DNA of 64,000 bases from Fervidobacterium gondwanense DSM 13020 (lineage in GTDB: Bacteria; Thermotogota; Thermotogae; Thermotogales; Fervidobacteriaceae): the NCBI RefSeq assembly GCF_900143265.1, contig NZ_FRDJ01000002.1:62001-126000 (forward strand), written 5' to 3'. Position 1 is the stretch's first letter. Each line of letters starts with the position of its first letter. Below are positions 40,721-51,364 of this stretch, one piece after another. The notes beneath the pieces are model-generated. The model saw nothing but the letters and a program-made list of their open reading frames with translations. It made no database searches and was not told the DNA's origin. The translations under genes were made by a program, and so were the position numbers.

Positions 40721-41695
40721 CTATCCTATAACAGCTTTCTCCCACTTCTTCAATATTTCATCCAATCGTTCGTTAATCTTTGGGTCTACTCTCAAAATCT
40801 TCTTTGTTTCAGGAACGTATTTAAATACTTCAGGTAGTTCGATGTTTATAACAGGAAGCATCCACTGGTTCAGAGGAACTTCTTTTTGAAATTCAGGTGT
40901 CAAAATAAATTCTATAAACGCTCTTGCAAGTGCCCTGTTTTTGGCATTCTTAATTATACCTGCGTATTCTTCAAGAACGTATGCGCCTTCTTCAAAGATT
41001 ACAGGTACATACTTTATTGAGCCGTATTTATACATGCTGTAAGCTCCGTCTGTTGCAAAACTAACTATTATGTCAGCCTCACCTGTTTCAATCATCTTGA
41101 ATGCTGCACTCCAACCACTTGTGAATGTAAGTACGTTCTTCTTGAGCTCTTTCCAGTACTCCATAGCTCCATCTTCACCAAAAGCCGCTATTGTCCACAT
41201 GAGGAATGTCAATCCTGTACTTGAAGTTCTTGGGTCTATTAAAACGATTTTGCCTTTGTATTCCGATTTCAGCAAATCTTTGAATGATCTTGGAGGATTT
41301 TTTATCTTCTCCGCGTTGTAAAGCATAGCTATAGCGCCATAATCGTACACGGTCCCGTAGTCGTTTACAAAACCTTTGTACATCAAATTTTTAGAATTCG
41401 TTGCTCTGTATTTTTCCAAGATACCTTCGCTGATAGCCTTGTTCAGTTGCTGGAGGTTCAATCCTATGACTATGTCAGCTCTTGGCGAATTTTTCTCAGC
41501 TATTAGCCTTGCAAGCACATCGCCCATCGAACCAAAGCTGACAACTTTTACTTTGCAGTTGTACTGTTTTTCAAATTTTGGTATAACAACCTTTGCTATG
41601 CCCCCTGCAAAACTGTCGGATGTGTATATGACAAGTTCAGCAGAGAAAGATACCGCTGTGATGAGCACAAGAGTTAAAAAAAACAGCTTTTTCAT
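40721..41695 (-). CDS. thiB: Thiamine-type ABC transporter substrate-binding protein
   Basis: The 324-residue secreted protein has a signal peptide (KKLFFLTLVLITAVSFSA) and the TbpA/ThiB-related type 2 periplasmic fold: VIYTSDSF near the N-terminus, ADIVIGLNLQQL, and LIDPRTSSTGLTFLMW. A TPP riboswitch directly upstream supports thiamine or a thiamine derivative as ligand. Only the binding protein is encoded here; ThiP/ThiQ-type partners must lie elsewhere, or another importer is used. ATG follows AAGGAGGGA. Confidence 0.88.
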   Translation of the reverse strand: MKKLFFLTLVLITAVSFSAELVIYTSDSFAGGIAKVVIPKFEKQYNCKVKVVSFGSMGDVLARLIAEKNSPRADIVIGLNLQQLNKAISEGILEKYRATNSKNLMYKGFVNDYGTVYDYGAIAMLYNAEKIKNPPRSFKDLLKSEYKGKIVLIDPRTSSTGLTFLMWTIAAFGEDGAMEYWKELKKNVLTFTSGWSAAFKMIETGEADIIVSFATDGAYSMYKYGSIKYVPVIFEEGAYVLEEYAGIIKNAKNRALARAFIEFILTPEFQKEVPLNQWMLPVINIELPEVFKYVPETKKILRVDPKINERLDEILKKWEKAVIG

Positions 41696-41742: not shown

Positions 41743-41771
41743 GAAAAAATCCCTCCAATTTTACGGAGGGA
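41743..41771 (-). terminator. Riboswitch expression-platform terminator
   Basis: Minus-strand TCCCTCC-GTAAAATT-GGAGGGA followed by a T6 tract lies between the aptamer and thiB. Its 5' arm TCCCTCCG is also exactly complementary to CGGAGGGA at the 3' end of the aptamer, giving a mutually exclusive antiterminator. Confidence 0.88.
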
Positions 41772-41817
41772 ACATCGTTTTATTATTAATTTTTCCAGAT
41801 TCACACTTATTGTGTGC

Positions 41818-41911
41818 CCTGGTCCCTCCGCCGGTATTAACCGGATCAGGTTCGAAGGGTCGGGAACTTGCGTTCCCCTCTCAGCCCCGCATTTAGGAGC
41901 TCCCCTCCAGG
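41818..41911 (-). ncRNA. TPP riboswitch (THI element)
   Basis: The minus strand contains the conserved TPP aptamer cores GGGGCTGAGAGG, GACCCTTCGAACCTGATC and GGTTAATACCGGCGGAGGGA, enclosed by a P1 helix CCTGG/CCAGG. Thiamine pyrophosphate binding should favour the terminator at 41771-41743 and switch off the thiB-like gene. Confidence 0.97.
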
Positions 41912-41929
41912 TATAGTATTTCACAATGA

Positions 41930-42021: not shown

Positions 42022-42072
42022 TAACTTAAAGGTTATCTCTAAAACCACTTACTTCTAAGAAGGGGTGAAACT

Positions 42073-44679
42073 ATGAGAAAGCACATTCTTATCTTGCTAA
42101 GTGTTTTTGTACTTACTATTTCGTTTGGTGGTGTCTTGCATTTTGAACATGCGGACATTGTTTTTCCGGAAGGTTATGAAGAAAACGCCAAACTTGTTGG
42201 GAAGATATTCGAAAACGTTCGGCAACAGGTTATCGATTTAATTGGAAACGACCCGGGTAGAGTTACTTTCATACTTCAAGATAAGGGAGCCATAAGTAAC
42301 GGATATACAAATCCTTTACTTCACAAAACAATAGTTCTTTACCTCTGGCCACCGGAAAGTTGGTTCCAATTCTCATTGCCGCTCGAGGATTGGTATACAT
42401 ATCTTATCATTCACGAATTTACGCACATGGTGCATTTAACCTACCAAGATTTATTCTCAAAGATAATAAGTATCTTAACAGGCATTCCGTATTTGCCTCA
42501 AATGTATGGACCATTTGTCGAAGGCACAACGGTCTTTGCTGAAAGCTCTTTTTCGAAATCCTCAGGTAGACTGAATAATCCGTTCTATTCTGATGGTATG
42601 TATTATTATTCTATTCCAAATTTTCCGTCATTCACCTATAAAGAATTGATGCCTGTTGATGACTTCAGAGGAGGTTTGCTGTACTACAATTTCACAGCTG
42701 GCTTTTATAAATATCTTGTAGATACGTACGGTCTGGATAAGATGAAAAAATATCTTGAATTAACTTCTGCATTTTTACCTGACCCAGAGATTGGGAGCAA
42801 GTATAAAGATATCTTTGAAAAAGTCTTTGGAAAAACTTTTGACGAGCTTTATACTGATTGGATTAGAAGTGTAATGAAGATAAAATACCATGAAGGTGAG
42901 CTTATATACAAACTTCCAAATACTCAGATCTACAAAATCGACAAAACAGATAAAGGCATTCGAATACTAACTGATAAATTTGGTCCCTCAACTTCTTACA
43001 TTGGTACCACTAATTCAGAATTGATAGAATTGGATCAAAGCGGAAAGGAAATTTCAAAACAAGTTCTTTTTGCAATGGATTTGAAAATTGATTCTGATAC
43101 AAAGTATGGTCTTATCAAAAGCGAGACTATGGGAACATACGAGAATCAGGTTTGGGATTTGAGTGCAAACCGGATTATTGCTAAAGGAAACATATCGGCA
43201 TTTGCGGTAGCAGATAAGAAGGTATACTTAGCAAATTATGACAATAGAACTATGAAGACCAGAATTGTAGGAGAGAACTTTGAATTAACAATAGACAAGT
43301 ATGTTTCTTATATGGACGGTAGAGATACGAAATTGGCTCTTCTGCTGTCGGATTATTCGATTCTTATAGTAGATACCAAAACCAAAGAAACGTTTGAGAT
43401 AACTGACGATGCAATGAAGGGCCCGTATGTAAGATTTTGGAAAGATGGCATTCTCTTTACAAGAGTTGATGGAAAATACGTGAATCCATATTATTATGAC
43501 CTATCTAAGAAAAAACTTTATCAACTTGGAGAAAATTTGTTGGTTTATGATTTTTGCGTAGCAGATGATTTCATCTATTATGTAAGCTATATTCCCTACA
43601 CGGTGAATACCGGTATGGGAATTTACAAAATCAAGTATAGTCAATCTGAAGCAGAATTGAAATCATATAAATACGATTTCAGTTTTACTGACGTGAAATT
43701 TGAGTACGGCTCTGAGCTCGCGTTTAGAATGAATAAATTCATGCAACCGCTTACTTGGATTCCGATGTACGAGTACAACGAAACTGACGACATTCATCGT
43801 GGGTATATGATATTTACTTTTGGAAACATAGAGAACGATACGTTTGTAGTCTTAACACCAATCTTTGACCTCAAAATAACAGATTCAAGCTTCAACCTTT
43901 CTTATTCACAGTACATCGGTGCTATCCAATCTAAGGATACTTACGAGCTTTTCGCCAGTTATTATTATCCAACAAACGACTACAACTTGACCGGTGCGTT
44001 TAGATTTGGGACTCTTAAACTAACGCCTAATACTAACATGTATGGTTACTTGACTTTCAGTTTTAGAAGTGAATATAGCAATATACTCGACGCTTACTTC
44101 AACCTATTTGCTACCTTTAATGTACCTGCTGTTTATTCAAAAAACATAGGCTTTGGGTTACTTGTTACATCGAATTTGTTTGGTTACCCTTATAAATCCC
44201 AAGCTTTCTTATTGCTCAGCAGTGAAACGTACGAAGAACTATTCTCGTATGAAAAGCTGTTGTCAAACTTGTACGCTTTCGGCTATTTTGGCATTGCTTT
44301 GAATTTAGACACAACATTTGAAAGCCAAGCTGCTGTAAGACTCGAGGATATTCAGACAGTTTCGTACGATGTTTCATTAGCATACACGTTGTTCAAAGAC
44401 AGTTCATTTATATTCGGAAATCTTATTTACGTACGAAATAGCGGTATTACCCTCGGAATTTCCAATCCAGTAGCTTTATCAAATGAATCCATCTATGGAC
44501 TTTACACTCATTTCTTTATTGAAACGTATGTCTCAGGTTTAAAGCTCTATCCTGTTGCAGGTATTTTTTCACCATTTACTGAAATCCTAAGCGAGGAGCC
44601 ATTGTATCTGATTTATTTTGGACTCAATTCATCGCCACATGGTTTACCACTGTCGCCATGGGTGATACCAAGTAGATAA
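42073..44679 (+). CDS. Secreted zinc metallopeptidase with propeller-like and beta-rich regions
   Basis: The 868-residue protein has a signal peptide (residues 1-20) and a gluzincin-type site: H114-E-F-T-H118 (IIHEFTHMVHL) with a probable third ligand Glu150 in PFVEGTTVFAES. This resembles peptidase-MA-like proteins. Residues about 280-560 contain repeated short beta segments with Asp/Lys turns, like a WD40/TolB-type propeller. The last ~300 residues are rich in alternating aromatic/polar strands and might form an outer-membrane beta-barrel. No transmembrane helix follows the signal. It stands alone behind its own promoter. Substrate and location are unknown. Confidence 0.75.
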   Translation: MRKHILILLSVFVLTISFGGVLHFEHADIVFPEGYEENAKLVGKIFENVRQQVIDLIGNDPGRVTFILQDKGAISNGYTNPLLHKTIVLYLWPPESWFQFSLPLEDWYTYLIIHEFTHMVHLTYQDLFSKIISILTGIPYLPQMYGPFVEGTTVFAESSFSKSSGRLNNPFYSDGMYYYSIPNFPSFTYKELMPVDDFRGGLLYYNFTAGFYKYLVDTYGLDKMKKYLELTSAFLPDPEIGSKYKDIFEKVFGKTFDELYTDWIRSVMKIKYHEGELIYKLPNTQIYKIDKTDKGIRILTDKFGPSTSYIGTTNSELIELDQSGKEISKQVLFAMDLKIDSDTKYGLIKSETMGTYENQVWDLSANRIIAKGNISAFAVADKKVYLANYDNRTMKTRIVGENFELTIDKYVSYMDGRDTKLALLLSDYSILIVDTKTKETFEITDDAMKGPYVRFWKDGILFTRVDGKYVNPYYYDLSKKKLYQLGENLLVYDFCVADDFIYYVSYIPYTVNTGMGIYKIKYSQSEAELKSYKYDFSFTDVKFEYGSELAFRMNKFMQPLTWIPMYEYNETDDIHRGYMIFTFGNIENDTFVVLTPIFDLKITDSSFNLSYSQYIGAIQSKDTYELFASYYYPTNDYNLTGAFRFGTLKLTPNTNMYGYLTFSFRSEYSNILDAYFNLFATFNVPAVYSKNIGFGLLVTSNLFGYPYKSQAFLLLSSETYEELFSYEKLLSNLYAFGYFGIALNLDTTFESQAAVRLEDIQTVSYDVSLAYTLFKDSSFIFGNLIYVRNSGITLGISNPVALSNESIYGLYTHFFIETYVSGLKLYPVAGIFSPFTEILSEEPLYLIYFGLNSSPHGLPLSPWVIPSR

Positions 44680-51204: not shown

Positions 51205-51281
51205 GGCGACGTAGCCAAGGGGTCTAAGGCGGAGGTCTGCAAAATCTCTATTCGAGGGTTCAAATCCCTCCGTCGCCTCCA
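51205..51281 (+). tRNA. tRNA-Cys (GCA)
   Basis: A complete cloverleaf: acceptor GGCGACG/CGTCGCC, anticodon stem GAGGT/ATCTC with loop CTGCAAA (anticodon GCA at 51239-51241), T-arm GAGGG-TTCAAAT-CCCTC, and encoded CCA. Confidence 0.96.
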
Positions 51282-51288
51282 AGAGAGT

Positions 51289-51364
51289 GGGCTCGTAGCT
51301 CAGTTGGTAGAGCATCCGGCTCATAACCGGACGGTCGGGGGTTCGATCCCTCCCGAGCCCACCA
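51289..51364 (+). tRNA. tRNA with CAT anticodon (probably elongator Met)
   Basis: Acceptor GGGCTCG/CGAGCCC, anticodon stem TCCGG/CCGGA with loop CTCATAA (anticodon at 51322-51324), T-arm with TTCGATC, and encoded CCA. The paired first acceptor position and lack of GGG/CCC in the anticodon stem exclude the initiator. Elongator Met is favoured, but tRNA-Ile2, whose CAT is modified to lysidine, cannot be excluded. Confidence 0.92.

Follow-up and report, generated by a model that had tools for sequence, protein, structure and literature searches.

The described enzymes that come nearest to the protein reported here are the M1 and M61 aminopeptidases, with which it shares an HExxH zinc motif, a downstream Glu in an 'EG' turn and a further downstream Tyr. 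M1 aminopeptidases have a gap of 18 residues between the HExxH and the Glu, an N-terminal domain of their own, and a GxMEN motif. Fusions of a peptidase-MA domain with PD40 repeats and a barrel, longer barrel-bearing forms among them, probably exist in other phyla too. Our own searches outside the Thermotogota returned only a two-part form without a barrel, in Salinibacter ruber. To judge from this sequence (WP_118831798.1, 'basic secretory protein-like protein'), the pairing of a gluzincin-type peptidase with a TolB propeller already exists outside the phylum: a gluzincin-like domain (HELVH, WLIEGMAEY) is followed by a TolB propeller that matches TIGR02800 at 7.7e-39. It was found by tblastn with a distant member of the family described below (1e-4, 25% identity over query positions 28-270) and, unlike the protein studied here, it stops at 633 amino acids. 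A looser likeness, by analogy, is to BepA of E. coli, which belongs to a different peptidase family (M48) and whose partner domain is a TPR domain. BepA is described as a periplasmic zinc peptidase in outer-membrane quality control (PMC8423444, PMC7950410). For the sheath (toga) of the Thermotogota, the accessible part of one paper names OmpA1, OmpA2, OmpB, an amylase and a xylanase (PMC3387000). A protein of the present kind is named neither there nor among the Fervidobacterium peptidases in the accessible parts of two further papers (PMC13157175, PMC12042847), and the titles and abstract openings listed from the open-licence full-text literature mention none.

The window analysed is a stretch of 64,000 nucleotides from Fervidobacterium gondwanense DSM 13020. 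Within it, an open reading frame at 42073-44679 on the plus strand encodes a protein of 868 amino acids (TAA stop included in the coordinates), most of whose length is conserved in close relatives. A Shine-Dalgarno-like AAGGGGTGA (42060-42068, plus strand) ends 4 bases ahead of the ATG. The first 19 residues (42073-42129), with the leader sequence MRKHILILLSVFVLTISFG, look by eye like the signal peptide that the earlier note had proposed, and a hydrophobic N-terminus is retained in relatives. The leader has no lipobox cysteine, which rules out a lipoprotein anchor. The same note had held the neighbours to be without known role, and this was wrong. The divergent upstream gene (40721-41695, minus strand) matches TIGR01254 above the cut-off (E 3.5e-73), which makes its product the binding protein of a thiamine ABC transporter. 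It lies behind a TPP riboswitch at 41806-41916 on the minus strand (RF00059, 82.3 bits), and a terminator-like hairpin (41750-41771) separates the two. An MFS-family gene lies downstream of the 868-aa protein's gene, and further along the window Rfam finds two adjacent tRNA genes (51205-51361, plus strand).

A single-sequence search with the window protein found relatives in 32 of 41 genomes. Most of its loci (26 of 30) went into a full-length alignment (A1), in which the window protein stands for L001 and from which L014 and L016 (near-identical to L015), the fragment L019 and the open-ended L030 were omitted; the profile made from it matched 83 of the 103 genomes of the phylum, in 31 of 38 genera. 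A further 25 distant loci (5 + 20) were picked from these 83 positive genomes. They were initially filtered by an HExxH pattern that dropped three of the 25 (L094, L100 and L105); because the picking relied on this pattern, the three were read separately, and they carry the motif too. They are included in the alignment of 49 members used below (51 entries minus two duplicates, 10 family groups). A profile of N-terminal domains (A5; 43 of the 49 sequences, six close relatives being skipped) matched 98 of 103 genomes and 36 of 38 genera, including 79 of 82 genomes of good quality; it was built from members of some of the same genomes that were later searched. The five genomes that lack a match have an estimated completeness of 60-91%. 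Among the 98 positive genomes, 81 have one match each; in one group (f9), 10 of 17 genomes have at least two, some of which are perhaps pieces of one gene. Phylogenetic distribution had been put forward as a check on the earlier reading; a spread this wide goes beyond chance and rules out a pseudogene or a chance open reading frame.

Other collections were searched as well. An exact-pattern scan of genome contigs, which is silent on relatives diverged from the patterns, gave 102 stretches and 6 loci, all with titles from Thermotogota, Fervidobacterium or Thermosipho. Viral contigs gave 600 pattern stretches with no relative among them. In the plasmid collection neither the window protein nor one of two distant members found a match, and the other distant member found a single one, from Salinibacter. 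Some loci have histories of their own. In a single FastTree topology of the 49 members (aa 21-530, midpoint-rooted), sequences of genus g7 of family f3 nest within g1, the genus of the window, and g2, both of family f1 (loci concerned: L007, L008, L011-L017; local support 0.996-0.997). Since the other f3 genera are placed elsewhere, the tree suggests that the gene moved horizontally between the two families. L019 (G032:C9:85204-85809) is a 62%-identical fragment that covers aa 27-228 only and has an internal TAG; the same genome also holds a divergent copy with an open frame of 810 amino acids, and from its sequence the fragment looks like a decayed foreign copy. At L068 (G004:C1, about 1228246-1236058) the gene occurs as a tandem pair, 79.6% identical, separated by a 477-aa gene that is lipoprotein-like by eye; the pair adjoins genes that resemble nusG, rplK and rplA, again by eye.

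Gene order around the peptidase is variable. We compared 27 neighbourhoods, namely the window and 26 loci (L033 and L071 denote a single place). The peptidase gene aside, even the commonest gene cluster, of ABC-ATPase type by reading, is limited to 10 of the 27, which rules out an operon partner. The MFS gene recurs in L032 and L033/L071 only, the thiamine gene in L033/L071 only, and six loci from groups g3 and g5 have a common gene context of their own.

The N-terminal domain (aa ~21-275, 42133-42897) contains the HEFTH site that had been picked out from the letters, at aa 114-118 (42412-42426). Only six columns are invariant in the 49 members: N76 (42298-42300), H114, E115, H118, E150 (42520-42522, within VEGTTVFAES) and Y205 (42685-42687). 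Five of them fit the M1-type catalytic set, with E150 as candidate third zinc ligand and Y205 as candidate catalytic tyrosine; N76, ahead of the zinc motif, falls outside it and has perhaps a role in substrate binding. Although the HExxH pattern was used in picking distant members, E150 and Y205 are not part of that pattern. A further acidic residue, E157 (42541-42543), is present in 46 of 49 members and replaced by Ser in three; its candidate role in the second shell is one we take from the M1 enzymes. Since identity to the window's N-terminal domain falls to about 18-20% in divergent members and the catalytic positions and N76 alone stay invariant, the pattern is what selection on catalysis would leave. 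The gap between H118 and E150 is 31 residues in the window protein, against the 18 of M1 enzymes, and neither the M1 N-terminal domain nor GxMEN is seen in it by eye, N76 being invariant instead.

Profile searches point the same way. Against PDB sequences, the best match of the N-domain profile is a cold-active M1 aminopeptidase (3cia, 7.4e-5), followed by M1 factor F3 (0.0076 and 0.008; 3q7j) and an M61 enzyme (8j9c, 0.011). An unrelated retron reverse transcriptase also scores 0.011, so single matches near 0.01 mean little. Among the 47 sequences listed at E<=10, 16 bear M1 or M61 names, and viral capsid proteins, which begin at 0.32, account for 27. The 3cia alignment starts past the HExxH and spans the Glu-to-Tyr part, while the 8j9c alignment spans the part from HExxH to Glu. 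In the former, the family's 'lvEGlavfsE' lies on 'LNEGFTSYVE', which places E150 on the Glu of LNEG, and 'lyYnygasflkylvekYG' lies on 'VPYVKGQLFLMYLEEKFG'; Y205 is thereby aligned with the Tyr of 'PYVKG', presumably the catalytic one, and in 3q7j with that of 'SYGKG'. Peptidase_MA_2 (PF13485) matches 20 of 43 N-domains at E<=0.1 (best 7.3e-6), all the while giving the window domain 17.0 bits and four of ten full-length members 18.5-22.2 bits, below its cut-off of 32.4. Across the whole F. gondwanense genome its one match, also sub-threshold (12.7 bits), is in the 868-aa gene itself. Peptidase_M1 (PF01433) matches one of 43 N-domains (E 0.093) and not the window domain, so the domain is M1-like rather than to be filed as M1. 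Flagellinolysin, another HExxH family, matches four of 23 members (best 6e-7, far below the cut-off). Look-ups with the window protein alone came back empty (Pfam E<=1, NCBIfam E<=5, PHROGs E<=1, PDB sequences E<=10), as did the 26-row full-length profile against PDB sequences. By its signature, then, the earlier assignment to the gluzincins is supported, for a domain that would stand outside the curated families.

The middle region (aa ~276-527, 42898-43653) had been described as repeated beta segments forming a propeller, and this is supported. In an AlphaFold2 model from a 7-row alignment, 24 of the 26 ten-residue blocks of aa 271-530 have pLDDT values of 65-89, the others 32 and 58. VIA-align of this region gives Z 14.9-16.3 to solved propellers among the best 50 matches listed; three matches to TolB (one of them an integrative model) have Z 15.2-15.7 at 3.3-3.5 A over 211-220 aligned residues, and NHL, paraoxonase and WD40 propellers tie with TolB in Z. 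A profile of distant members matches TolB 7mx5 among PDB sequences at 2.4e-12, TIGR02800 matches 11 of 23 members at E<=0.1 (best 1.3e-11), and PD40 exceeds its bit cut-off in three. A TolB-like beta-propeller fold is thus well supported as a prediction. TolB proper is ruled out by scores far below the equivalog cut-off (21.6-44.1 bits among the members listed, against 343), and the equivalog model does not match the window protein in NCBIfam at E<=5. Unlike TolB, the propeller sits in one chain with a peptidase and a probable barrel, and the flanking genes scanned are neither tol nor pal. The confident part of the model ends here: pLDDT is below 50 for 553 of 868 residues, with about 27-53 per block in the N-terminal domain. 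Structure prediction for the three regions, which had been suggested as a check, is therefore confident for the propeller and of low pLDDT for the N-terminal domain and the C-terminal third.

The C-terminal third (aa ~557-852, 43741-44628) has 19% F/Y/W and is rich in beta strands both in the full model and when modelled separately, in keeping with its earlier description as aromatic and beta-rich. Both models have long strands at low confidence; the separate one (pLDDT 46.8, pTM 0.31) has 13 strands with at least 8 residues, the last being YLIYFGLN. With short strands omitted, the scored strands average 12.8 residues (13 of 17), against 7.3 in the propeller (18 of 25). Foldseek gives this model no match at E <0.001, with TM-scores of only about 0.1-0.2; the best match (2.6e-3, TM 0.17) is chain F of a substrate-engaged Bam complex. 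Of the best 50 matches listed, 29 are described as outer-membrane barrel proteins or as Bam/Tam complexes; BamA and TamA recur many times among these, and another two descriptions are ambiguous. VIA-align finds nothing at Z >=8, with a top Z of 7.3 and an unrelated methyltransferase second at 6.9. Weak matches to a porin model in Pfam (one member at 0.067, one N-domain at 0.013) were discarded as chance. As for the aromatic beta-signal at the C-terminus of outer-membrane barrels, the last residue is F or Y in 23 of 49 members, and the window protein ends in WVIPSR, with no aromatic residue in final position.

A clearer signal comes from counting decamers with strict in-out alternation and comparing the count with that in shuffles. 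The C-terminal regions of the 49 members contain 281 such decamers against 125 expected, with an excess in 48 of the 49; as the members are related, these are not 49 independent tests. In the same proteins the peptidase domain has a deficit (71 against 115) and so has the propeller (58 against 114). As a positive control, the barrel region of the Omp85 protein from the same genome gives 7 against 2.9 expected (z 2.44), and the remainder of that protein 4 against 3.7 (z 0.19). Two M48 proteins (the F. gondwanense genome has two M48 matches of its own) have no excess (z -0.95 and 0.01), and nor has the 493-aa protein encoded after WP_118831798.1 (5 against 4.15). Across 40 arbitrary stop-to-stop frames of the window the mean z is -0.32, with four frames at 1.6-1.9, so only the family-wide excess counts; the window protein alone has 6 decamers against 2.9 expected (z about 1.9, reached by 28 of 500 shuffles), and its strand-wise alternation falls short of significance (equalled or exceeded in 148 of 2000 shuffles). 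The Omp85 match itself (50.4 bits, cut-off 24) indicates that the machinery for barrel insertion is present. The barrel that the earlier note had called possible is in this way supported as a prediction, by the alternation across the family with its Omp85 control rather than by a confident structure model.

On balance, these parts probably make up an outer-membrane-anchored zinc peptidase of the toga, which faces the periplasm and serves the upkeep of the envelope. The protein would be exported by Sec, and its C-terminal ~300 residues would insert into the outer membrane as a beta-barrel through the Omp85 machinery. The catalytic domain and propeller would remain on the toga's inner side, which is periplasm-like, since a soluble domain that precedes a barrel usually stays on the periplasmic side. 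From the invariance and the M1/M61 alignment, zinc would be bound by H114, H118 and E150, with E115 as the general base and Y205 stabilising the transition state. The propeller may dock a partner or screen substrates above the active site, and the task may be the maturing or clearing of toga proteins as envelope housekeeping. Location, activity and substrate are what we infer from these features. As gluzincin, propeller and barrel are each supported, the earlier reading of an outer-sheath-anchored protease is a reasonable hypothesis. In a more specific version, the barrel would be a conduit and the propeller its cap, with the gluzincin cleaving proteins or peptides that enter or leave the toga; a toga-specific protease seated on such a pore is an improbable form of the idea. 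If true, the gene would be a core gene inherited in the phylum, and its product the protease central to maturation or quality control in the sheath.

The main rival to the toga-tethered peptidase has the same anatomy, with peptidase and propeller passed to the outside as in an autotransporter, so that the protein would be a surface digestive protease feeding on peptides. Autotransporters indeed have an N-terminal passenger followed by a C-terminal barrel, which is the order found here, and the accessible parts of two papers report that Fervidobacterium breaks down keratin with membrane-associated proteases (PMC13157175, PMC12042847). The family, however, extends beyond Fervidobacterium to nearly all Thermotogota genomes searched, no transporter gene recurs overall (even the ABC-ATPase-type cluster stops at 10 of 27 neighbourhoods), and a propeller with a folded gluzincin domain would be a large cargo for such a barrel; we leave this reading a small chance. 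The near-universal, mostly single-copy spread without a fixed neighbourhood fits envelope housekeeping better than a dietary role. A second rival is a soluble secreted protease whose C-terminal third would be a soluble beta domain, for instance a beta-sandwich, in place of a barrel. The low confidence of the barrel models, the weak alternation in the window protein alone and the Salinibacter relative, with its peptidase and propeller and no barrel, all agree with a soluble protein. They are set against an excess of alternating decamers in 48 of the 49 members, with controls in the same proteins and in Omp85, C-terminal strands that are longer on average than the propeller's, and the 29 barrel-type descriptions among the best 50 Foldseek matches listed, and we consider a soluble protease unlikely. 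Finally, all tested enzymes are distant from the domain and E157 is lost to Ser in three of the 49 members, as might be expected of a zinc-binding or inactive gluzincin scaffold that serves envelope architecture. With the catalytic positions and N76 as the only invariant ones in so divergent a domain, a protein that is no peptidase at all is very improbable.

Given relatives in nearly all Thermotogota genomes searched, the 868-aa protein looks like a core, unstudied component of the toga. A peptidase so widely kept, with catalytic residues as almost its sole invariants, would give a handle on how the sheath is built and maintained, and the family would be a source of thermostable membrane-bound peptidases.
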